Notes: generated by a model from the sequence alone, not told the origin. 64,000 nt of DNA from Candidatus Eisenbacteria bacterium (GCA_005893305.1 VBOZ01000014.1:1-64000); one strand, 5' to 3'; positions 5,377-56,260 are shown, numbered from the stretch's first letter. Made by a program: numbers and translations.

Positions 5377-7485
5377 GTGGCGCTGCGTGTCGAAAACCTG
5401 ACGTTCTTGGGACTTAACCGCACCGACCTTCTCGAGCTCTACCGGCTCATGCTCCTTTCTCGTCGCCTCGACGACGAGGAGATCAAGCTCAAGAAGCAGA
5501 ACTTGATCTACTTCCAGATCAGCGGCGCCGGACACGAGGCCGTGCTGGTGGCGGCCGGCAAGGCGCTCCGATCCGGGTCCGACTGGTTCTATCCCTACTA
5601 CCGCGACCGCGCCCTGATGCTCACCCTCGGCATGACCCCCCTCGAGATGCTCTACGAGGCGGTCGGCGCCGCCGCGGACCCGAACTCGGGCGGCCGGCAG
5701 ATGCCGTGCCACTGGGGCCTGAAGCGCGCCAACGTCGTCTCCCAGTCGAGCCCGACCGGGACACAATTCCTCCAGGCGGTGGGCTGCTCGGAGGGCGGAC
5801 GCCTTCTCGCTTTGATGCATGAACTTAAAGAAAGACCACCGTATCGTGAGGACGAGGTTGTCTACGTCTCGGCCGGCGACGGCACGACCAGCGAGGGCGA
5901 GTTCTGGGAGGCGATCAACACGGCCGCCACCGACGCGCTCCCGGTCCTCTTCCTGATCACCGACAACCAGTACGCGATCTCGGTGCCGGTGGAGGCCCAG
6001 ACGCCGGGCGGCGACATCGGGCGCTGCATGAGCTCTGTCCCCGGTCTTCGCGTGATGCGGGTCGACGGGACCGATCCGCTCGCGTCCTACCAGGCGATGG
6101 TCGAGGCGGCTCAGCATCTGCGCGCGGGGAAAGGCCCGGTCCTCCTGCACGCGATGGTGATCCGCCCGTACGGCCACTCGATGTCGGACGACGAGCAGTC
6201 GTACAAGCCGCCGCGCGAGCGCGAGGAAGAGGCGAAGCGCGATCCGATCACGACCTACCCGAAATATTTGATCCGCGAGGGGCTCGCGACCCAGGAGGCG
6301 ATCGAGCAGATCCAGAAGGACGTGGAGGCGGAGATCGCCGAGGCCGAGGCCCAGGCGCTGAAGGCGGCGAAGCCCAAGCCGGAGACGATCTACGACCATC
6401 TCTACTCGCCGACCGTCGATCCGACGAGCCGCGCGTTCGAGACCGAGCCGCGCTTCGAGGGACAGCCCGAGACGATGGTGACCCTCATCAACCGCTGCCT
6501 CAAGGACGAGATGACGCGCGATCCGCGCATCGTGCTCTTCGGCGAGGACGTGGCCGACGCGACGCGGGAGCAGAATCTGGAATCGGTGCCCGGCAAGGGC
6601 GGGGTCTTCAAGGTCACCTACGGACTTCAGAAGCAGTTCGGCAAGGACCGCGTCTTCAATTCGCCCTTGGCCGAAGCCAACATCGTCGGCCGCGCGATCG
6701 GGATGGCCACGCGCGGCGTCAAGCCGGTTGTCGAGATCCAGTTCTTCGATTACATCTGGCCCGCGATGATGCAGATCCGGAACGAGCTCTCGATGCTGCG
6801 CTGGAGATCGAACGGGGACTTCTCCTGCCCCGCCGTCATCCGCGTGGCGATCGGCGGGTATCTCCAGGGTGGATCGATCTACCACAGCCAGTCGGGCGAG
6901 AGCATCTTCGCCCACTGCCCGGGGCTCAGGATCGTCTTCCCCTCGACCGCGGTGGACGCGAACGGACTCCTCCGCACGTCGATCCGCTGTGACGACCCGG
7001 TTCTTTTCCTGGAGCACAAGCATATCTACCGTCAGCCGTACGCGAAGGGTCCCTATCCCGGACCGGACTTCATGGTCCCGTTCGGGAAGGCGCGTGTCGC
7101 GCGGGAGGGGACGAACATCTCGGTGATCACGTGGGGAGCGACCGTGAACCGCGCGCTCCTCGCCGCGCAGCGGCTCGAGGCGGAAGGAATCAGCGTGGAG
7201 GTGATCGATCTTCGCACGCTCCTCCCCTTCGACCGGGAGGCGATCCAAAAGACCGTCGAGAAGACGTCGCGCGCGCTGGTGCTCCATGAGGACGTGCTCA
7301 CGGGAGGCTTCGGCGGCGAGATCGCCTCGATCATCGCCGAGCACCACTTCGACTCGCTCGACGCGCCGGTCCGGAGGATCGGCGCCGCCGACACGCCGGT
7401 CGGCTACGCCCCCGACCTCGAGGCCGCGATCCTGCCCCAGGTGGACGGGATCACCGAAGCGATCCGGTCGCTGGCCCGCTACTAA
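5377..7485 (+). CDS. 2-oxoacid dehydrogenase E1, fused alpha and beta subunits
   Basis: A thiamine-diphosphate enzyme of 702 residues that joins the E1 alpha and beta chains in one polypeptide. The alpha half carries [13 protein letters not shown] with ITDNQYAIS about 30 residues later, the GDG-x(~28)-N ThDP/Mg motif. The beta half starts near residue 370 with the [12 protein letters not shown] and [12 protein letters not shown] motifs and ends in the transketolase C-domain (LITW-like [14 protein letters not shown]). Overall similarity is to branched-chain 2-oxoisovalerate dehydrogenases, with pyruvate an alternative. The start is GTG 5377, because GGAGG at 5364-5368 is spaced eight bases upstream; an in-frame ATG at 5302 lies before the -10. 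No E2 or E3 gene is nearby. Its stop codon overlaps the stop of the convergent NUDIX-MBL gene. Confidence 0.9.
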
Positions 7486-9029
7486 GTCTTCGGCCGATCC
7501 GCCGCCGGCGCCCGAGCGGCCGGTCCGGCCACCCGCTCCAAGCGCTCCCCCACCCGGCGAACACGACCCTCCTCGATCAGCTTCTCGAGGTGCGCACGCA
7601 GGGTTTTGAGGGCAAGCTGCGGCGCGGCGTCCGGCGAATCGGCATAGACCTTGGCGACAAGCTCCTCCTCCCCGAGCGGTCCCTTTTCGAGCGCGCGCAG
7701 GACACGCCCCTCCCGGAGCCTTCGATGCTCGATCAGAGTTTGTAGAGCCCGCTCGACCCCCCGGTTCGGAGGGCCATGACCCGGGATGAGCGTCCTCACG
7801 TCCATCGAGCGGATCCGCTCCAGGGACGCGATGTAGTCCCGCATGTTGCCCTCGGGCGGATCGATCACCACGGTTCCCAGCCCGGAGACCAGGTCGCCCG
7901 CGACGAGGGTCTTCGAGGTCTCCTCGAAGAAAGCCAAGTGGGAGCGCGAGTGCCCCGGCGTCTCGAGCACGCGCACCCGCCGCGGGTGGCGTCCCTGCAA
8001 CTCGATGACGTCGTCCTCGTGCAGCTCGCGATCGATCCGCGCGCGGTCCTGAACGAGCGGGTGCGCCCAGACAGGGATCCCGTAACGCTCGCGCACGGCC
8101 TCGACGCCCGCCAGGTGGTCCCGGTGGCGGTGCGTGAGCGCGATCGCGAGCGGCTTCCTGCCCGGGAGGAGCGCTTCATCGATCACGCGGTAGAGGGCGG
8201 CGAGCTCCTCCGGGTCCGCGCTCCCGGGATCCACGATCAGGACATCACCGTCCCCGATCACGACGGCGTTGGTGTGGGTCGCCGGCGGCAGGGTCTCGCT
8301 CTTCTGGGGAACCATCGTGATCGCGGGCCGAACGTCGACGTGGCGCGAGGGGACCTCGTTCGCCTCGGGAATCTGATGAAGCCGCGCCGGCAGATCGTGC
8401 TGGCCCTCCGCCAGGACGCGGATCGCGTGAAGGGTCGGCATCGCGAGCACGACCCGATCCTCCTCCCAAAGCTGAAGCGCCCGGGACGGCTCGACCCACT
8501 CCCCCGACTCGAGCTCACCCGGCCACACGTCGGGGGCCGCGGCAGTCTCCAGTTCCACGAAGAAGAAGTTCGTGTCGAATCGCGCCCGGCTGAAATGAGG
8601 CGTCACCCAGCGGCCGCATGGGACGTAGACCGAACGGTCGAGCTTCAACCCCCACGTCCCGACGGTCGGCCAGAACTCGATCTTTCCGTCCAGAAGGTCG
8701 CGCCTCACACGCCGCTGTTCTTCGAGCGGCGGGGGCGATCCGCGGAATCCGACGAGCATCCCGGTCTCCTCGAACGTCTCCCGCGCCGCGCAGCGGGCCA
8801 TCGTTTGCATGTAGGCGTCGGGACCGCCGTCGATCGGTCCGTCCTCGCGCGCGAGGCGGCCGCCGGGAAACGAGTGAAATCCGCCGAGGAACGGGTTCGC
8901 CTCCGAGCGCCTCACCCAGAGAAGCTGAAGCGGTTTCCCTCGGTGTATCGCGATGATGCTCGCGGCGGGGCGAAGCGCTGGCGATGCGGGACGAAGCGCT
9001 GGACCGCCGCCGCGGTTGTCGCGGCTCAT
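7482..9029 (-). CDS. NUDIX hydrolase fused to metallo-beta-lactamase-fold hydrolase
   Basis: One chain of 515 residues with two enzymes. Residues 20-200 form a NUDIX domain ([10 protein letters not shown], then [10 protein letters not shown] at 81-90, the RExxEExG core). Residues 225-440 form a metallo-beta-lactamase domain with THRHRDH at 299-305 (HxHxDH), the next ligand in PGHSRSH (H360) and D379 in AGDLVSG. The C-terminal 70 residues are a winged-helix extension ([18 protein letters not shown]), as in LACTB2-like proteins. LACTB2 relatives are endoribonucleases and NUDIX domains cleave nucleoside-diphosphate-linked compounds, so action on CoA, nucleotide or RNA derivatives is plausible but unproven. 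The ATG at 9029 overlaps the upstream methyltransferase stop by four bases. Confidence 0.87.
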
Positions 9030-45925: not shown

Positions 45926-46051
45926 GCCCCGATGATAGCCTGTTCGCTGGCCCGTTGACCTCCCCTTTGGGCCTGCGTATCATTCGTGGTCGGAACCGTC
46001 CCGACGGTGCGGGCGGGGCCAGGGATTCAAGCGGATGGAGGCTGGAAGGTC

Positions 46052-46711
46052 ATGTCGAAAGCCAATTACGCGGATTTGCCCATCAACCACAGCGAGGAGC
46101 CGATCCGGCTCTTCAAGTCGGATTTTCTCGAGTTCTTCACCCACATCCACCCGGCCGTCGTGCTGCTCCTCTACGTCCCGGTCGTGGTCTTCTTCCTGGC
46201 CCGCTCGTACGCGGAGTGCGTCTCGGCGGGATCGCTGACGCCGCTCTGGGGCGGATACGTGGCGGGGATCCTCGTGTGGTCGTGCTCGGAATACCTTCTT
46301 CACCGCTTCCTCTTCCACTACGAGCCGAGCCAGGCGTGGCTGAAGCGGGTCTGGTACCTGATCCACGGCGTCCACCACGAGCAGCCGCAGTGCAAGACCA
46401 GGCTCGTGATGCCGCCGATCCTGAGCGTCCCGCTGGCGTTCCTCTTCTACGGGCTCTTCCACCTGGTGGTCGGCATGGTCCTCGGCGCTCCCACCTGGAC
46501 CGGCCCGCTCTTCGCGGGCTTCATCACCGGGTACATCATGTACGACATGACCCACTACGCGACGCACCACCTCTCGATGAACTGGGGTTTTCTCAGGTTT
46601 CTGAAGCGCTACCACCTCCTCCACCACTACAAGACGCCGGACGTCCGGTTCGGCATCAGCTCTCCCATCTGGGATTTCGTCTTCGGCACGAAGCCGCCGA
46701 AGGGCTCCTGA
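46052..46711 (+). CDS. FA2H-like fatty acid hydroxylase (sterol desaturase superfamily)
   Basis: A 219-residue membrane diiron enzyme with four hydrophobic helices. All histidine clusters are present: YLLHRFLFH (HX4H), IHGVHHEQ (HX2HH), THYATHHLS (HX3HH) and YHLLHHYK (HX2HH). This arrangement fits fatty-acid 2-hydroxylases that act on sphingolipid acyl chains; sterol or carotenoid substrates are alternatives. ATG 46052 is used; a GAAGG site precedes it. It lies 31 bases before mlaE. The ceramide operon six kilobases away supports a role in hydroxylating ceramide, which is an inference. Confidence 0.85.
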   Translation: MSKANYADLPINHSEEPIRLFKSDFLEFFTHIHPAVVLLLYVPVVVFFLARSYAECVSAGSLTPLWGGYVAGILVWSCSEYLLHRFLFHYEPSQAWLKRVWYLIHGVHHEQPQCKTRLVMPPILSVPLAFLFYGLFHLVVGMVLGAPTWTGPLFAGFITGYIMYDMTHYATHHLSMNWGFLRFLKRYHLLHHYKTPDVRFGISSPIWDFVFGTKPPKGS

Positions 46712-46742
46712 AGTCGCGGCGCGGGCGACACCGCTAGTCCCG

Positions 46743-47522
46743 ATGGGACTCCTCTCCGCGTTCGTGGAGTGGCTGCGGCGGACCATCCAATCCGTTCAGG
46801 AGTTCACCCTCTTCAGCATCGATGTCATCCGGGCCACCTTCTCCCCGCCGTTCTACGGCCGGGAGATGGCCCAGCAGCTCTATTTCGCGGGGATCGGCTC
46901 CCTTCTGATCGTCGTCGTTTCCTCGGTCGTCGCGGGTCAGGCGCTCGCGCTCCAGCTCGTTCGAGAGCTGGCGGCGTCGGGCGCGAAGAGCCAGCTCGGG
47001 CATTTTCAGGTGATCTCGGTGGTCCGGGCGCTGGGGCCGATCTTGACCGGGATGGTGGTCGCCGCGCGAATGTCGGCGGGGATCACGGCGGAGATCGGCG
47101 CGATGCGCTCGAGCGATCAGATCGACGCGCTGGTCGCCTTCGGCGCCGACCCGATGAAGCGGCTGGTCGTGCCGCGGCTCGTCGCGCTGCTCGCGGCCCT
47201 GCCGGCTCTCGTGATCATCGCGGACACCCTCGGCGTCCTCGGGGGCGGGCTGGTCGGCACGCAGTACCACCTGACGTGGGACACCTACATGAACGGCGTC
47301 CTCAAGTACTTGACCCCCAAGAACCTGCTGGTCGGCATGATCAAGCCGTTTATCTTCGCGATCATGATCGTGATCGTGGCATGCTGGAAGGGCTTCACCT
47401 CGGCGGGGGGCGCCAAGGGCGTAGGCGTCTCCACGACCCAGTCGGTTGTCATCTCGTCGGTGGGCATCCTGGTCACGGACGGGATCTGCACGCGGCTGAT
47501 CTTCAAGCTACTCCATTGGTGA
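46743..47522 (+). CDS. mlaE: MlaE-type phospholipid ABC transporter permease
   Basis: A 259-residue permease with about five helices. The MlaE signature region is in ALGPILTGMVVAARMSAGIT and AEIGAMRSSDQIDALVAFGAD, followed by PRLVALLAALPALVIIADTL. It forms the membrane core of the Mla/MCE lipid transporter in the inner membrane. ATG 46743. The gene is followed four bases later by the ATPase. Confidence 0.93.
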   Translation: MGLLSAFVEWLRRTIQSVQEFTLFSIDVIRATFSPPFYGREMAQQLYFAGIGSLLIVVVSSVVAGQALALQLVRELAASGAKSQLGHFQVISVVRALGPILTGMVVAARMSAGITAEIGAMRSSDQIDALVAFGADPMKRLVVPRLVALLAALPALVIIADTLGVLGGGLVGTQYHLTWDTYMNGVLKYLTPKNLLVGMIKPFIFAIMIVIVACWKGFTSAGGAKGVGVSTTQSVVISSVGILVTDGICTRLIFKLLHW

Positions 47523-47526
47523 CGGC

Positions 47527-48339
47527 ATGATCGAATTTCAAGACGTGAACTATACGATCGGGGATCGGTTGATCCTCTCGGGCGTCAGCTTCGCGGTTAA
47601 GCGCGGCGAGACCCGCGTGATCCTGGGCCCGTCCGGCTCGGGCAAGAGCACGGTCCTGCGCCTTCTCATGGGCCTGGTCCAGCCGGACAGCGGCAACATC
47701 ATCGTCGACGGCGAGGACATCGCCGCGGTGGACGAAGAGCAGCGCCGGCGAATCCGGCGGAAGATGGGGGTCGTCTTCCAGCAGGGTGCGCTTTTCGATT
47801 CAATGACCGTGGGAGAAAACGTGGGCTTCTCGCTCCTGGAACAAGCGGATGCGGACGAGGAAGGGGTCGAGGGAACGGTGAAGCACTTCCTCTCGCTCGT
47901 CGGTCTCGAAGAATACCTGATCGACCGGATGCCGGACGAGCTGTCCGGCGGGATGCAGCGGCGCGTGGCGATCGCCCGCGCGCTGGCCGCACGGGACCCG
48001 CAGATCCTTCTCTACGACGAGCCCACGACCGGGCTCGATCCTCAGGCCTCCGAGCGGATTACCGACCTGATCGTCCAGCTTCGCGACACCATGGGCAAGA
48101 CGTCGATTATGGTGACGCACGATATTGCCGATGCATTCAAGGTGGGAAACCGAATCACCATGCTCCATGAGGGGCGGGTCGTCTTCGACGGGCCGGCGGC
48201 GGACCTCAATCGCGCCCAAACCCCCTTCATCACCCAATTCCTGGCCCCATTTCGGAAGGCGGTCGCGGCCGCCAGCGCGCCCGTGGCGGGCGCTAACCGC
48301 CCCGCCCAGGCTCCCCCACAGTTCGGAGGAACCTCGTGA
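47527..48339 (+). CDS. mlaF: MlaF-type ABC transporter ATP-binding protein
   Basis: A 270-residue ATPase. Walker A is GPSGSGKST (34-42), the signature is LSGGMQRRVAIARAL, Walker B is ILLYDEPTTGLDP and the switch is MVTHDIADAF. The Mla-type C-terminal helix follows. It powers lipid movement by the MlaE permease. The stop overlaps mlaD by four bases (GTGA). Confidence 0.93.
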   Translation: MIEFQDVNYTIGDRLILSGVSFAVKRGETRVILGPSGSGKSTVLRLLMGLVQPDSGNIIVDGEDIAAVDEEQRRRIRRKMGVVFQQGALFDSMTVGENVGFSLLEQADADEEGVEGTVKHFLSLVGLEEYLIDRMPDELSGGMQRRVAIARALAARDPQILLYDEPTTGLDPQASERITDLIVQLRDTMGKTSIMVTHDIADAFKVGNRITMLHEGRVVFDGPAADLNRAQTPFITQFLAPFRKAVAAASAPVAGANRPAQAPPQFGGTS

Positions 48340-49262
48340 AGCGAACCGGTCAGATTCCCTTCATGGGGCTCAAGATCGGAATCTTCGTCTTCATCGCCAG
48401 CGTGCTCCTGCTGTGGGCGACGTTCCAATCGGGAAGCTTCAGGCTGGGCAAGGAGGAGGACATCGTGGTCCGCTTCCCCAGCGTGGGCGGGCTCGAGGAA
48501 GGCGCCGTCGTGCGGCTGAACGGCGTCCCGATCGGGGTCGTGCGGGACATCTCGCTCACGCCGCAGGGGAACGATGTCGCGGTCAAGCTCGGGGTCAAGA
48601 AGGGGACAAGGGCACGGCTCCACGAGGGCGCCTCCGCCCGAATCACGACGGTCGGATTCCTCGCGGAGCTCTACGTCGAGCTGAACGGCGGGAACGAGGC
48701 GGCTCCGCCGATCCGGAACGACGCCGAGATCACGCCCGGCCTGCTCGCGGACCCGGCCGTGATGATGAACAAGGTGAAGTCGATGGCGGATACGCTCGAC
48801 ATCATGCTCTCCAACCTCACGAGCGCGAGCCGCTCGCTGGTCCATGGCAAGGGGACGCTGGGGCGCCTCTCGCAGGACGACCGGCTCTACGAGCAGATGG
48901 TCTCGCTCACGCACGAAGCGACACAGCTCACTTCGCGCATGAATGAGAATCAGGAGCGGATCTCCGGCCGCCTCTACACGCTCACTGGAACGCTCGACAG
49001 CCTGACCTACCAGATGCAGCACGGGAACGGAACGGTGGCGCGGCTTCTGAACTCCGACGAGCTCCACCAGAAGCTGGCCTCGAGCAGCGCCCGGCTCGAC
49101 TCAATCTTATCGATCGTCGAATCGGGCAAGGGTACGTTTGGACGGATGATGGCCGACACCGCGCTCTTCGACGACACGAAGGCGCTGGTCGCCTCGATGA
49201 AGCGGTTGATGGCGGAGATCGAGAAGAACCCGAAGAAGTACCTGAAATTCAGCGTGTTCTAG
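48336..49262 (+). CDS. mlaD: MCE-domain lipid-binding protein (MlaD family)
   Basis: A 308-residue protein with one N-terminal helix (IGIFVFIASVLLLWATF) and an MCE domain (about 40-120: VRFPSVGGLEEGAVVRLNGV, GFLAELYVELNGG). A long helical tail with heptad-like repeats follows (GTLGRLSQDD, GNGTVARLLNSDEL, GKGTFGRMMAD). Longer than E. coli MlaD, like the MCE proteins of TGD2 and Bacteroidota. It bridges the periplasm and carries phospholipid. GTG 48336. Confidence 0.9.
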   Translation: MKRTGQIPFMGLKIGIFVFIASVLLLWATFQSGSFRLGKEEDIVVRFPSVGGLEEGAVVRLNGVPIGVVRDISLTPQGNDVAVKLGVKKGTRARLHEGASARITTVGFLAELYVELNGGNEAAPPIRNDAEITPGLLADPAVMMNKVKSMADTLDIMLSNLTSASRSLVHGKGTLGRLSQDDRLYEQMVSLTHEATQLTSRMNENQERISGRLYTLTGTLDSLTYQMQHGNGTVARLLNSDELHQKLASSSARLDSILSIVESGKGTFGRMMADTALFDDTKALVASMKRLMAEIEKNPKKYLKFSVF

Positions 49263-50258: not shown

Positions 50259-52790
50259 CTACCGCGCGAGCACGAAGCGCCGCGCGAGCTTCTCACCCCC
50301 CGCGTCGGCGCGAATCCAGTAGACCCCGCTGGCCGCTTGCCGGCCTCGTGAATCCCTTCCGTCCCACGTGAGCGGCAAGAACCCCGCCGTCGCGTTCCCC
50401 GAATGCAGGAGCGCGACGAATCTTCCCGCGATGTCATAGACCGCGACGTGGGCCGGGCCCGCGTCCTTGAGACGCAACGTGATCGTCGTGGTCTGTGAGG
50501 CCGGATTCGGCCGCGGTGCGCCCAGAACCGCACGCGGCGGCATCTCGGGTCCCTCCCCAACGTGCGTCGGGAGGAGTGCCGCGTCGTGAAGCTCGAGGTC
50601 GTCGATCGCGGCTTCGACGATTCCGCTCACGCCCTCGTCCTGCGCGATGAACCGGACCCGGACCGCGGCGTCGGGCACGACGTAGTCCTTCACGCGGATC
50701 AGCTCGGGGTGCCAATCGGGATGGCTCTCGCGGATCGTGCGGGCCCGGACCCAGTTCACGCCGTCCGATGAGAGGTCGATCAGGAGCGAGTCCGGCTCCC
50801 CCGGCGTGTTCATGTAGTACCAGCGGCGAAAGCCGATCGTCGGGTCGGTCATCCCGCCCACCGGGAGCGGCGGGGTCATGAGCGTGGTCTTTCCGCCGTC
50901 CACGTCCCCGTCGGCCGGGGCGCCTCCGACGGCGCCGTTTCCCGTGACGAAGCAGAAGCCGGTCCCCGGCGAGGCGTCGTCGTCGGGTTGGACCTGGCCC
51001 TCCTGGCTGAAACCCCCTTCCTCCGGCTCCGGATGCTGCGGGGCGAGCGTGCCCGGCGAGAACGGCGAGGCAGTGTTCGGATTCCCCCTCGCGGTCGGAT
51101 CCTTGATCGCGCTCGCGAACGACGTGCCGACCGGCTCCGCGCGCACCCATAGCCCGTCGGTCGCGTTATCCCCCGCCGCGCTCAACGACCATCCCTTGTC
51201 CGTGTCGCACGAGTCGTACCAGGCGGCGCGAAGGAGGGACCAGCTCTCGGTCATCGAGGCGCCTGCCTGCATCGTGACGAGCCTCGTCTGCGGCCCGTAT
51301 CCGGCGCGGTCGCAAACCAGCCTGTACGTGCCGGGCGGGGTGCCGGGGAGCGTGTAGCCGCCGGACGATCCGCTGCTCGCGAGAAGCGGGTTATCGCGGT
51401 CCTCGACGGTGGCGTCCGGAAGCCCGGTCGAGTCGGAGGCGCGCAAAACCGTCCCCATGATCGTTCCCAGCGCCGCCGGCTGGAGCACCACGTCGATGAA
51501 ATCGTGCCCGCCCTTCGTGATCCCGCCGACGGCAAAGGCGTCCTGGTAGCCCCACTTTCTGACCCGCACCGTGTGGCTGCCCGGGGCCAATGCCAGGATC
51601 GCCGTCCCGAACGACTGGGTCCGCGTGGAATCGCTCTCGCCGACGCACACGACGTCGGCCCCGGGGATCGGGACCGAGGCGGCGTCCCGGGCCGTGACCC
51701 GGAGCGTCCCGTAGTTCGGGTTCGCTCGGAAGATGTACAGGCCGGACTCGATGTCGCTCGCGATGAACGTGCCCGAGGGATAGAAGGGCGCGACCTCCCA
51801 CACCCCGTGGAATCCGCCGGAGAATCTTCCGTACGTGTCGTAGTAGCCCCACTCGGCCGGCAGGGACGGGTCGGTCAGATCGAAGAGCCGGACTCCCTCC
51901 GTGTACCAGGCGACGAACGCCGTGTCCTGCTTCACGTGCACGTTGTGGACGATCGATAGCGGGTTGACCGTTACTTCTCGTACCTTCGGGTGCGCGAAGA
52001 TGTCCTGCATGTCGAAGACCTTCATCGTGCCGTAGTTCACCTCGTCGCACGCGTAGGGATAGCGTCCGTCGCGGGACTTCTCCGCGCTGTGGGTGCGCGC
52101 GCCGGGATACGTCCAGGAGACGAGCTCCGTCGGGGCGGCCGGGTTCGCGAAGTTGAACACGCGCATGATGGCGCTCGAGATGCAGCTCGCGTAGAGCGTG
52201 TCGTTCCGGACCCAGCTGTCGTGGACGTAGTCGGTCAGGTACGACCCCACCTCGACCGGGTTCTCGGGGTCGGCGAGGGAGAGGATCCGCATCCCGGTGG
52301 GGATCCCGTCGAACCGCGTCCCGTTCAGGATCAGGAGCGCGCGCGTCGTATCGACGGCGACGGTGTGGGCACGGTTGAAGTTGGTCACGTAGGTCTTCAC
52401 GAGCACGGGGCTCTCGGGATCGGTCATCCGGACGATCTGGATTCCGCCGCCCGCCGCCTCGGTCGAGATGTAGACCCAGTTTCGGTATTGCTTCATCTCG
52501 CGCCAGACCGATGGGAGCCCGGGGATGAACGCGACCTCATAGGGCGATGAGGGGTTCGTGATGTTCACGATCGAGGTGCCCGCGTCGGTGCCGAGAATCG
52601 CGTACTCGCGCCCGTCCGAGTGGACGTAGCTCCAGCAGGCGGAGTAGGCCGCGTAATTGTCGAGGTGGGCGAGGAGCGTGACGTTGCGCGAGGTCGCTGC
52701 GGCGATCGCGGCGTGCGGTGCGGCGTAGGCCATGCCGGCCAGCGTGACGATCGCGGCGAGGATTCGCGTGCCGTTGGAGCTGTGCTGCAA
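50259..52790 (-). CDS. Secreted choice-of-anchor-B-type LVIVD repeat protein with FlgD-like C-terminus
   Basis: An 843-residue exported protein. The start is TTG 52790, seven bases after GGAGG (52802-52798), giving a signal peptide that ends near AAIAAATS. Residues 20-390 hold LVIVD-type propeller blades (GTDAGTSIVNITNPSSP, MRILSLADPENPVEVGSYL, VRLFDLTDPSLPAEW). Two carboxypeptidase-regulatory-like folds follow (about 400-560), then a jelly-roll-like region and the FlgD-like Ig module (PRPNPASQTTTITLRL, VAVYDIAGRFVALL, LTWDGRDSRG). Probably surface-exposed; the ligand is unknown. Confidence 0.8.
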   Translation of the reverse strand: MQHSSNGTRILAAIVTLAGMAYAAPHAAIAAATSRNVTLLAHLDNYAAYSACWSYVHSDGREYAILGTDAGTSIVNITNPSSPYEVAFIPGLPSVWREMKQYRNWVYISTEAAGGGIQIVRMTDPESPVLVKTYVTNFNRAHTVAVDTTRALLILNGTRFDGIPTGMRILSLADPENPVEVGSYLTDYVHDSWVRNDTLYASCISSAIMRVFNFANPAAPTELVSWTYPGARTHSAEKSRDGRYPYACDEVNYGTMKVFDMQDIFAHPKVREVTVNPLSIVHNVHVKQDTAFVAWYTEGVRLFDLTDPSLPAEWGYYDTYGRFSGGFHGVWEVAPFYPSGTFIASDIESGLYIFRANPNYGTLRVTARDAASVPIPGADVVCVGESDSTRTQSFGTAILALAPGSHTVRVRKWGYQDAFAVGGITKGGHDFIDVVLQPAALGTIMGTVLRASDSTGLPDATVEDRDNPLLASSGSSGGYTLPGTPPGTYRLVCDRAGYGPQTRLVTMQAGASMTESWSLLRAAWYDSCDTDKGWSLSAAGDNATDGLWVRAEPVGTSFASAIKDPTARGNPNTASPFSPGTLAPQHPEPEEGGFSQEGQVQPDDDASPGTGFCFVTGNGAVGGAPADGDVDGGKTTLMTPPLPVGGMTDPTIGFRRWYYMNTPGEPDSLLIDLSSDGVNWVRARTIRESHPDWHPELIRVKDYVVPDAAVRVRFIAQDEGVSGIVEAAIDDLELHDAALLPTHVGEGPEMPPRAVLGAPRPNPASQTTTITLRLKDAGPAHVAVYDIAGRFVALLHSGNATAGFLPLTWDGRDSRGRQAASGVYWIRADAGGEKLARRFVLAR

Positions 52791-52843
52791 GAAAACGCCT
52801 CCGCGCGGGCGCCGGCGTGGGGAGCATTGCCCGCGAGCGAAGT

Positions 52844-53830
52844 CTACACCCAGCCCGCCTCCCGGTACCAGGCCGCGGTGCGATCGATCCCTTCCGCGAG
52901 CGAAACCTTGGGGGTCCAGCCCAGCTCGGTTCGGATCTTCGCCGAGGAGCAGAGCCAGTCTCCCGACGAGATCTCGCGCAGCTTCTCGCGGCTCAAAAAC
53001 GGGGCCCGGTTCCGGAGCGATCCCCACATCTCCCCGACGAGCGCGCTCGCCTGTAGCGCGAATCCGGGTGGGCTCACCGGCACGGCCCACGTCTTCAAGG
53101 AGCGGCGCACCAGGTCGCCCAGCTCGCGATAGCCGGTCACGTCGGGCTCGGACGCGAAGAAGACCTGGCCGGCCGCGCGCGGGTGCGTCAGCGCAAGATG
53201 GACCGCGCGAGCGAGGTCCTCGGCGTAGATCAGGGAGAAGCGCCCTCCCTCACGGAGAATCGGGAGGACGTGCCATTTGACCGCGACGAATGCCCGAAGC
53301 AGCGAATCATCGCGGGGGCCGTAGACCGCCGGCGGCCGAATCGCGACGACCGGAAGGCTCTCCTTGAGGAGCATCGTCAGCTCCTCCGCGCGGCGCTTCG
53401 TCGCCCCGTAGATCGAGACCGGATCGGGTCGCTCCGTCTCGGTGACCGCCCGGCCCTCGACCGCGGGGCCGGCCACGGCCTGGCTGGAGATGAGCACGAA
53501 GCGCTGGAGCCGGCTCCCAGCCGTCGAAGCCGCCCGGAGCATCTGTTCGGTTCCGCCGACGTTCACTTCCTGGAACTCCCGCGGCGATCGCGCGTGCGTG
53601 AGCCCGGCGGCGTGGACGATCCAATCCGCGCCCTCGACCGAGGATTCGAGGCGCTCCGCGTCGCGGAGCTCGAGGCGGGTGATCTCGACGGCCTTTCCAT
53701 CCAGCCATCGCGTCGAGGAGGTGGGGCGCAGCAGGCAGCGCACGGTGGCGCCCTGGCGGAGAAGCTCGTCGACGATGTGGCTTCCGACGAAGCCGGACGC
53801 CCCCGTGACGACGGCGAGCGGCCCGCTCAC
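52844..53830 (-). CDS. NAD-dependent epimerase/dehydratase, CerR-like candidate ceramide reductase
   Basis: A 328-residue extended SDR. VVTGASGFVGSHIVDELL binds NAD(P), DWIVHAAGLTHARSP and VNVGGTEQML are family blocks, and the catalytic Tyr/Lys is in SIYGATKRRAEEL. On its own it would be annotated only as an epimerase. Its place as third gene after serine palmitoyltransferase and a GNAT-like protein matches the bacterial ceramide pathway of Caulobacter, where CerR, a protein of this type, reduces the 3-keto group of the ceramide precursor. The ATG overlaps the upstream gene by four bases. Confidence 0.8.
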   Translation of the reverse strand: MSGPLAVVTGASGFVGSHIVDELLRQGATVRCLLRPTSSTRWLDGKAVEITRLELRDAERLESSVEGADWIVHAAGLTHARSPREFQEVNVGGTEQMLRAASTAGSRLQRFVLISSQAVAGPAVEGRAVTETERPDPVSIYGATKRRAEELTMLLKESLPVVAIRPPAVYGPRDDSLLRAFVAVKWHVLPILREGGRFSLIYAEDLARAVHLALTHPRAAGQVFFASEPDVTGYRELGDLVRRSLKTWAVPVSPPGFALQASALVGEMWGSLRNRAPFLSREKLREISSGDWLCSSAKIRTELGWTPKVSLAEGIDRTAAWYREAGWV

Positions 53831-54939
53831 GGGCCGAGGCGGCGCTCGTAGATCCGGTAGACCGAGGAGCGCACGCCGCCCATGACCCGCGACATGTCGT
53901 GCACGGCCTCGTTCTCCTCGAGAATCCAGCCGATGTCGCAGGAGGTGTAGCCGAGGCGCTTCGTGATCCCCGCCATCTCGGCGATGAGAAGCGGTCCGAT
54001 CCCCTTTCGCCGCAATCCCGGCCCGAGACCGAGGGCCATGACCCGGAATTCGCGAATCCTCGGAAGGGCCCAGAGGAGCTTGAAGATCCCGAACGGGAAG
54101 AGCCGGCCTCCCACCTTCTGCAGCGCGATGTTCGCGTCGGGCACGCAGAGCGCGAAGGCGACCACCTTCCCGTCGATCTCCGCGAAGCGGATCAGCTCCG
54201 CCTTGACCACCGGCTTGAGCTGCGACGCCATGTGGTCGATCTCATGGTCGGTCATCGGGACGAAGCCCCAGTTCTTCTCCCAGGCCGAGTTGTAGATCAC
54301 CTTCACGTGCTCGAGCTCCTCGTCGAATCGGCGCATGTCGATCGGGCGGGTCGTCAGCCCCGGCTGCAAGCGCGCGCGAGAGGCGATCCGCGCGTAGGCG
54401 GGCGGCAGGGCCTGCGGCACCGGGCAGCGGAACGAGTAGAGGTCCTTCGCCTTCGCGAGGCCGGCGCCGCTGAGCCACACCGCGTATTCGGGCGGGTTGT
54501 ACGGCATGAGGAGCACCGGACGGAGGTCGAAGCCTTCGATGAGGAGGCCGCACTCGTCGTTGGTGGTGAAGCTCATCGGCCCGCGGAGGACCTCGGCCCC
54601 CTTCGAGCGCGCCCACGAATCGGCCGCGGCGATCAGGGCCGCGGTCGCCTCGGGCGATGTCGCCTCGAAGAACCCGAACGTCGCCTGCTTCTCGCCCTGG
54701 AACGAGTCGTAGTTCCGGTCGACGGACGCGGAGACCCTGCCCACGATCTTCCCACCCTCTCGAGCGAGGAAATACCCCGCCTCGGCGTGCTCGAAGTAAG
54801 GGTTCTTGCCCGGGGTCAGCCGGACAAGCTCGTCCGAGGGGAGCGGCGCGACCCAGTACGGGTTGCCGCGATAGCGGTCGTAGGGGACTTGAATGAAGCG
54901 CCGCAGGTCGGCGGGGCTTTGAACGGGGACGACTTCCAT
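53827..54939 (-). CDS. GNAT-fold acyltransferase, candidate bacterial ceramide synthase
   Basis: A 370-residue protein with a GNAT-like C-terminal domain (about 220-365: VVAFALCVPDANIAL, FRVMALGLGPGLRRKGIGPL, the acyl-CoA pyrophosphate loop) and a partly related N-terminal domain (GYFLAREGGKIVGRVSASVD). FTTNDECGLLIEGF and LMPYNPPEY are strongly conserved-looking central blocks. The double-GNAT architecture and the spt context match the enzyme described as bacterial ceramide synthase (bCerS), which N-acylates 3-ketosphinganine. The ATG 54939 lies 19 bases after the spt stop. Confidence 0.75.
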   Translation of the reverse strand: MEVVPVQSPADLRRFIQVPYDRYRGNPYWVAPLPSDELVRLTPGKNPYFEHAEAGYFLAREGGKIVGRVSASVDRNYDSFQGEKQATFGFFEATSPEATAALIAAADSWARSKGAEVLRGPMSFTTNDECGLLIEGFDLRPVLLMPYNPPEYAVWLSGAGLAKAKDLYSFRCPVPQALPPAYARIASRARLQPGLTTRPIDMRRFDEELEHVKVIYNSAWEKNWGFVPMTDHEIDHMASQLKPVVKAELIRFAEIDGKVVAFALCVPDANIALQKVGGRLFPFGIFKLLWALPRIREFRVMALGLGPGLRRKGIGPLLIAEMAGITKRLGYTSCDIGWILEENEAVHDMSRVMGGVRSSVYRIYERRLGP

Positions 54940-54958
54940 GCCATTCCCCGGCCCGGGG

Positions 54959-56161
54959 CTAGCCGGCCTTGGAGGCCAGCTCCAGGCCGACCTCCTGGTG
55001 CACCTCTTCGACGACCTTCAGGATGTAGTCGAGCTGCTCGTCCTTGTGGGATGCCATGTAGGACGTGCGCAGGAGATCGCGGCCCGGCGCGACCGCGGGC
55101 ACGACGATCGCGTTCACGAAGACGCCGCGGTCGAGGATCTTCCTCCAGACCTGCATGGTCTTCATGCGATCCCCGATGAAGATGGGAACGATCGGCGTCT
55201 CCTTGCCCGAGCCGACCTCGAGGCCCTGCGCCCGGAAGCCGCTCCGCATCTTCACCGAGATCTGACGGAGGCGGTCGCGGAGCGCCGGCTCGGTCTCGAT
55301 GATCTCGAGGGAAGCCAGCGCGGCCGCCACGCTCGCGGGGGTCACGCTCGCGCTGAAGATCATCGCCCGCGCGTGGTGGCGCAGATAATCCATCACCACC
55401 CGGGGGCCAGCGATGAACCCGCCCACCGAGGCGAACGACTTGCTGAACGTGCCCATGACGAGATCGACCTGGTCCTCGACGCCCATCGCCTCGCACGCCC
55501 CGGCGCCGCGGGCGCCGAGCACGCCGATGCCGTGCGCGTCGTCAACCAGGAGCCGCGCGCCGTACTCCCGAGCGAGCCGCACGATGTCGGGGAGCGGCGC
55601 GAGATCGCCTTCCATGCTGTAGAGCCCGTCCACCACGACCAGCTTGCCGGTCCGGGGCGGCAGGCTGTTCAGCACGCGCTCCAGATCCCGAACGTCGTTG
55701 TGGCGGAAACGCTTCACGTCACCGTACGAGAGCCTCGCCCCGTCCACGATGCAGGCGTGCGCATCCTTGTCGAGGATGACTACGTCGCCCTTGTCGACGA
55801 GCGCCGATATGCTGCCCAGGTTCGTCAGGTAGCCGGTCGAGTAGACGAGGGCCGCTTCCTTGCGCGTGAACTTGGCGAGCCTCTCCTCCAGCTCGACGTG
55901 GAGCTCGAGGGTGCCGTTCAGGAATCGCGAGCCGTTGTTCGATGTGCCGAAGCGGCGGAGCGCGTCCTCGGCGGCGGCCATGACCTTGGGGTGCTTCGTC
56001 AGGCCGAGGTAGTTGTTCGATCCAGCCATGATCAGCCGCTTCCCGGCGATCGTGACCTCGGTGCCGTGGTTTTCGGATATCGGGAGAAAATAGGGGTAAA
56101 CGCCGGCTTTCTGGGCCAGGTGATGCTCTTTGAATTGACCACACTTGTCGAATAGGTCCAC
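54959..56161 (-). CDS. Serine palmitoyltransferase-like PLP enzyme
   Basis: A 400-residue alpha-oxoamine synthase. The PLP lysine is K241 in GTFSKSFASVGGF. NNYLGLTKHPKV, GTLELHVELEERLA, the stacking His in DKDAHACIVDGA and VDDAHGIGVLG follow. The family includes BioF, Kbl and Spt. The segment SNNYLGLTKHPKV and the company of candidate bCerS and CerR genes favour serine palmitoyltransferase, the first step of sphingoid-base synthesis. BioF or 2-amino-3-ketobutyrate ligase remain alternatives. ATG 56161. No ACP gene adjoins. Confidence 0.83.
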   Translation of the reverse strand: MDLFDKCGQFKEHHLAQKAGVYPYFLPISENHGTEVTIAGKRLIMAGSNNYLGLTKHPKVMAAAEDALRRFGTSNNGSRFLNGTLELHVELEERLAKFTRKEAALVYSTGYLTNLGSISALVDKGDVVILDKDAHACIVDGARLSYGDVKRFRHNDVRDLERVLNSLPPRTGKLVVVDGLYSMEGDLAPLPDIVRLAREYGARLLVDDAHGIGVLGARGAGACEAMGVEDQVDLVMGTFSKSFASVGGFIAGPRVVMDYLRHHARAMIFSASVTPASVAAALASLEIIETEPALRDRLRQISVKMRSGFRAQGLEVGSGKETPIVPIFIGDRMKTMQVWRKILDRGVFVNAIVVPAVAPGRDLLRTSYMASHKDEQLDYILKVVEEVHQEVGLELASKAG

Positions 56162-56231: not shown

Positions 56232-56260
56232 ACGATACTGATTTCCCCGCCCCGAGTCAA
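56232..56260 (-). promoter_or_regulatory. Promoter of the candidate ceramide operon
   Basis: On the minus strand TTGACT (56260-56255), 17-base spacer, TATCGT (56237-56232). The ATG of the serine palmitoyltransferase is about 70 bases downstream. It is the only clear promoter ahead of the three genes. Confidence 0.5.

Follow-up and report, generated by a model that had tools for sequence, protein, structure and literature searches.

A predicted three-gene ceramide operon in Candidatus Eisenbacteria, with hydroxylase and MCE transporter genes nearby

Three genes lie together on the minus strand of the window, the whole 64,000-nucleotide stretch of DNA analyzed here, for which Candidatus Eisenbacteria (MAG contig VBOR01000018.1, locus L039) is the nearest relative with a name. 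The first, spt (54959..56161), encodes a 400-aa alpha-oxoamine synthase of the serine palmitoyltransferase (SPT) type, with a TFSKS motif and a PAV..LLRTSYMASH substrate loop. The second, bCerS or cerS (53827..54939), encodes a 370-aa tandem-GNAT protein, a putative N-acyltransferase homologous to YghO and to the GNATs of the Sphingomonas, Kordiimonas, and Myxococcus ceramide clusters. The third, cerR (52844..53830), encodes a 328-aa extended SDR (TGASGFVG, YGATK) that groups with the CerR proteins of ceramide clusters. As described in the first-pass annotation, the genes are closely spaced or overlapping: 19 nt separate the spt stop from the GNAT start, and the GNAT and SDR frames overlap by 4 nt (GTGA). 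Gene order and strand were identical in every family member with enough contig, and protein identity within the family was 81 to 88% for the SPT, 57 to 66% for the GNAT, and 58 to 66% for the SDR. Thus, the three frames are real genes. A candidate sigma-70-like promoter (TTGACT-17-TATCGT; 56232..56260, minus strand) was found upstream of spt. This weak site matches 9 of 12 positions, with 0.3 such matches expected by chance in the scanned region, and a single promoter for all three genes is plausible. Fusions among the three enzymes were considered and rejected, with separate frames found in loci L048, L045, and L085. A protein with carboxypeptidase regulatory-like and FlgD_ig domains (50259-53090, minus strand) overlaps the end of the SDR gene as listed, but probably begins close to 52.78 kb.

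When compared with solved structures, the window SPT scored 386 bits against the Sphingobacterium SPT (3a2b/8guh) and 304 against the Sphingomonas SPT, versus 253 bits against cysteate acyltransferase and approximately 212 against BioF or Kbl. Its top NCBIfam model was the Bacteroidota SPT (495.5 bits; bioF model, 379), a score below the 640-bit cut-off of this equivalog (NF047600). The Myxococcus SPT was also under this cut-off (514 bits), although the genus is known for sphingolipids. For a Kbl-like paralogue of the same genome (C8:52086-53204), which also carries Kbl-like motifs, the scores were reversed (574 Kbl-like, 388 SPT). Alignment with 3a2b and 2jg2 revealed TFSKS, DDAH, the stacking His, and the Arg of PAV..LLR(T)S in the window protein; at the TFSKS position, E. 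coli Kbl has TLGKA and BioF has TFGKG. We take the Lys of TFSKS to be the PLP lysine, the His to stack, and the Arg of PA..LLR to bind the carboxylate.

In a maximum-likelihood tree of 60 proteins, the window SPT was placed inside the SPT clade, with Kbl, BioF, and CFAT outside. The SPT on the L039 contig is identical to that of family member G007. Thus, the PLP enzyme, first read as SPT-like, clusters with SPTs and apart from BioF and Kbl in the tree and by NCBIfam and PDB scores alike. Inside the clade, it was on the Bacteroidota-like side, grouping with Ignavibacteriota/Bacteroidota sequences (support 99/87), and the SPTs of other families in the same class grouped with Gemmatimonadota and Poribacteria. 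This split placement hints at a transfer or a replacement. The myxococcal SPTs (L048 8380-9930, L045 8404-9936) differ from the window SPT by a C-terminal extension of about 120 aa; when that of Myxococcus was tested as an ACP domain, zero Pfam matches were obtained.

For the second gene, Pfam recognized only a C-terminal GNAT domain. The double GNAT proposed at first pass was confirmed by an AlphaFold2 model (mean pLDDT 96, pTM 0.92), which matched tandem-GNAT structures such as mycothiol synthase. Identity to the bCerS genes of ceramide clusters was 35 to 42% over at least 98% of the length. Full-length identity was 35 to 36% with both E. coli YghO and a Sphingomonas protein, whose genes are clustered with those for Spt, ACP, and SDR. 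YghO and its Sphingomonas counterparts have been listed as ceramide N-acyltransferases (PMC9386255). By full-length similarity and gene neighborhood, the window GNAT groups with bCerS genes and not with peptide acetyltransferases, as the earlier assignment had it. In the GNAT family tree, the deep branches lacked support, and paralogues from loci without an SPT were not separable from bCerS with support. The bCerS name is therefore based on full-length homology and linkage, which support this predicted identity. Family members G003, G006, and G008 carry a second GNAT of the family away from any SPT, and such second GNATs (L194 4078-5259, L195 4542-5729, and L196) have a conserved neighbor protein (M..PWALIQHV...).

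The SDR was placed in a clade with ceramide-cassette SDRs, including the CerR proteins of E. coli, Sphingomonas, and Kordiimonas, at less than full support (98/70), in agreement with the initial reading of an extended SDR of the CerR type. One of its PDB matches is a complex I subunit of 39 kDa; this NDUFA9 type has been noted for CerR. The nucleotide-binding motif occupies residues 9 to 16, too near the N terminus for a cleavable signal peptide to fit. The glycine motif likewise begins within residues 3 to 24, mostly 5 to 13, in 77 of the 78 cassette SDRs examined, so these too have little space for one.

The three gene types also occur together elsewhere. Four cultured relatives were searched. 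In Kordiimonas and Taibaiella, the best matches of all three window proteins were the three ceramide-locus genes; in Myxococcus, the SPT and GNAT had their best matches in the ceramide locus, and the cassette copy of the SDR was second best. The ceramide genes of Sphingobium were dispersed, an arrangement already published for Sphingomonadales. Of the 48 public GNAT loci flanked by 3 kb or more on each side, which come from many phyla, 37 carry an SPT no farther than 3 kb from the GNAT, 32 have both SPT and SDR, and 16 show the order spt-GNAT-SDR on one strand. Co-occurrence across related genomes, the check suggested by the first-pass annotation, was evident: of the 29 related genomes with an SPT or a GNAT, 26 had both. 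Among all 59 related genomes (own included; GNAT E ≤ 1e-50, SPT ≥ 330 bits), one had the SPT only, two had the GNAT only, and 30 had neither (Fisher p = 2.4e-13, uncorrected for kinship). Contig ends truncate the locus in both GNAT-only genomes, and the GNAT counted for G008 and for G052 may be a paralogue. The large family f8 of the same class lacks the SPT-GNAT pair.

The identity of the three enzymes is thus supported by sequence, structure, and linkage. Taken together, the three genes very probably make up an operon for de novo (dihydro)ceramide synthesis, of a Bacteroidota-like, acyl-CoA-using kind. In the predicted pathway, Spt would condense L-serine with a fatty acyl-CoA to give 3-ketosphinganine, the tandem-GNAT bCerS would N-acylate this intermediate with a second fatty acyl chain, and the SDR CerR would reduce the 3-keto group to yield dihydroceramide. 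We propose the substrates (serine and acyl-CoA), the sequence of the two later steps, and the end product by analogy with characterized relatives.

As reported previously, Caulobacter requires the structural genes spt, acpR, aasR, cerR, and cerS, five in all (PMC11324152, PMC9386255), and its system employs an ACP of its own together with the matching synthetase (PMC9386255). Kordiimonas, whose aasR-cerR-acpR-spt layout is that of Caulobacter, stood in for it here; the E. coli yghO cluster and genes from Sphingomonas were the other proteobacterial references. The Caulobacter-type systems of alpha-, beta-, and gammaproteobacteria, including E. coli BL21 ECD_02850-02854 with yghO, share homologous Spt, GNAT, and SDR proteins with the window, and the same three reactions are proposed. 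However, no dedicated AcpR was found in the approximately 96% complete genome of the window (95.8%). The single stand-alone ACP belongs to the fab cluster, and two further ACP matches lie within large proteins. AMP-binding proteins occur in the genome, and none was assigned as AasR. As no ACP beyond that of the fab cluster was found standing alone, the donor is probably acyl-CoA, which Bacteroidota use as well (PMC11324152). Therefore, the claim of a complete ceramide operon held for the acyl-CoA-using, Bacteroidota-like version of the pathway and failed for a Caulobacter-like one. The window also differs from the proteobacterial group in having the N-acyltransferase gene between spt and cerR in one operon, whereas in that group cerS reportedly always belongs to a separate transcription unit (PMC11324152); the window GNAT shares only about 35% identity with YghO. 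In Taibaiella (L117) and Myxococcus (L048), as representatives of Bacteroidota and Myxococcota, the order and strand of spt-GNAT-SDR were the same as in the window. The ceramide genes are clustered in the window but, according to a Black Sea survey, often not clustered in Bacteroidota members (PMC11334938).

Published studies disagree on whether acylation precedes reduction (PMC11324152 versus PMC11087976). Within the ceramide reading, a eukaryote-like order, in which the SDR reduces 3-ketosphinganine to sphinganine before the GNAT acylates it, is possible but the less likely one. It has been proposed for Caulobacter by one group (PMC11324152), and since the window SDR has no room for a cleavable signal peptide, cytoplasmic reduction would be possible. 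On the other hand, deletion of cerR in Caulobacter leads to accumulation of oxidized ceramide, CerR of this organism was reported to be periplasmic (PMC11087976), and the gene order spt-bCerS-cerR follows acylation and then reduction.

The alpha-oxoamine synthases are closely related to one another, and the PLP enzyme might instead use alanine, leading to 1-deoxyceramides, or cysteate, leading to sulfonolipids, in which case the operon product would be a ceramide-like lipid and not ceramide. According to the Black Sea survey, bacteria of the euxinic zone produce many 1-deoxyceramides and have the same gene types (PMC11334938). However, sulfonolipid enzymes form a separate group: the cysteate enzyme of Taibaiella (paralogue L127) scored 594 bits against the solved cysteate acyltransferase and was placed outside the SPT clade, whereas the window protein scored higher against SPT than against that enzyme. 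We regard a non-serine substrate as improbable, with alanine use being compatible with the sequence. The combination of a BioF/Kbl-type enzyme, an unrelated N-acetyltransferase, and a sugar epimerase in a small-molecule or envelope-sugar pathway, which would match single-gene annotation and the generic Pfam families, is highly improbable and largely refuted by the tree placement of the SPT, by the match of the GNAT and SDR to ceramide-cluster genes, and by the presence of the Kbl-like paralogue as another gene. Replacement of LPS by sphingolipids, as in Sphingomonas, is not favored: LpxC is present in the genome, so sphingolipids need not replace LPS.

Downstream of the putative ceramide operon, convergent with it and 3 to 6 kb away, is a plus-strand block (45986-49262) that encodes a fatty acid hydroxylase (46007..46711), the MlaE permease of an MCE lipid transporter (46743..47522), an MlaF-like ABC ATPase (47527..48339), and an MlaD/MCE-domain protein (48336..49262). 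The four genes may be associated with the operon, judging by neighborhood. Similarity to the ceramide 2-hydroxylase Scs7 of yeast (E = 1.5e-26) includes the histidine clusters, which the hydroxylase retains; encoded about 6 kb from the operon, the enzyme is a candidate for 2-hydroxylation of the ceramide N-acyl chain. The block adjoins the operon in the family members with enough contig. However, citrate synthase and DUF1028 on the other side of the operon are equally kept across the family, so this synteny is weak evidence. In other lineages, cassettes of Myxococcales, Bailinhaonella, Bdellovibrionales, and Taibaiella have a hydroxylase homologue in their vicinity, as does, more distantly, that of Roseomonas. 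In the Poribacteria locus L049, spt is preceded by an MlaEFD set (5629-8192). One could imagine a sphingolipid island in which the operon makes dihydroceramide, the Scs7-like enzyme 2-hydroxylates it, and MlaE-MlaF-MlaD carry the sphingolipid between the inner and outer membranes, a scenario that we consider speculative and rather unlikely. If true, it would provide an MCE-type sphingolipid transporter; the Caulobacter authors state that a transporter has yet to be identified.

BT_1522, the inositol-phosphoceramide synthase of Bacteroides, is homologous to AUR1, and AUR1-type enzymes are grouped with PAP2. Gemmatimonadota and other families of the class commonly have a PAP2_3 gene directly after cerR, and this cassette-linked PAP2_3 is a candidate headgroup enzyme of bacterial sphingolipids. 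PAP2_3 genes were recorded at loci L046, L047, L055, L061, L074, L088, L093, L095, L105, L108, L202, L204-L209, and L215; in Bryobacterales, the gene lies between the SDR and GNAT genes. The genome of the window has one PAP2_3 gene above the family cut-off. This gene is unlinked (G000:C1:66034-66570), and its product, 36% identical to a cassette-linked one, may add a phospho-headgroup.

The same cassette is present in Gemmatimonadota, Myxococcota, and Actinomycetota. Among the last, it was seen on plasmids of Streptomyces sp. NBC_01001 (NZ_CP108712.1; L037 4763-8045) and Rubrobacter radiotolerans (NZ_CP007515.1; L038 4698-8065), and another actinomycetotal locus (L098) has the spt-GNAT-SDR cassette with a divergent spt. 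According to the Black Sea survey, Spt, bCerS, and CerR gene types, often clustered, occur in 38 to 40 phyla, and the loci of uncultured phyla carry the same gene types as the window; the available text does not name Eisenbacteria or discuss hydroxylase and MlaEFD neighbors such as those in the window (PMC11334938). A literature search for Eisenbacteria and sphingolipids returned nothing relevant. Thus, the cassette is of a kind already known from many phyla, and the Eisenbacteria operon is a further example. New here are the Scs7 homologue and MlaE-MlaF-MlaD beside the operon throughout the family and the hydroxylase homologues that flank cassettes in other phyla.

With this three-gene operon, Candidatus Eisenbacteria joins the bacteria predicted to make sphingolipids. 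The pathway is masked when the genes are annotated singly, as Kbl/BioF, N-acetyltransferase, and epimerase; the first-pass annotation had anticipated such names, and Pfam indeed gives generic families only. The compact operon is well suited to testing the disputed order of acylation and reduction. In addition, the hydroxylase, the cassette-linked PAP2_3 genes of relatives, and the MCE transporter are candidates for tailoring, headgroup addition, and transport, respectively, which are poorly known steps in bacteria.
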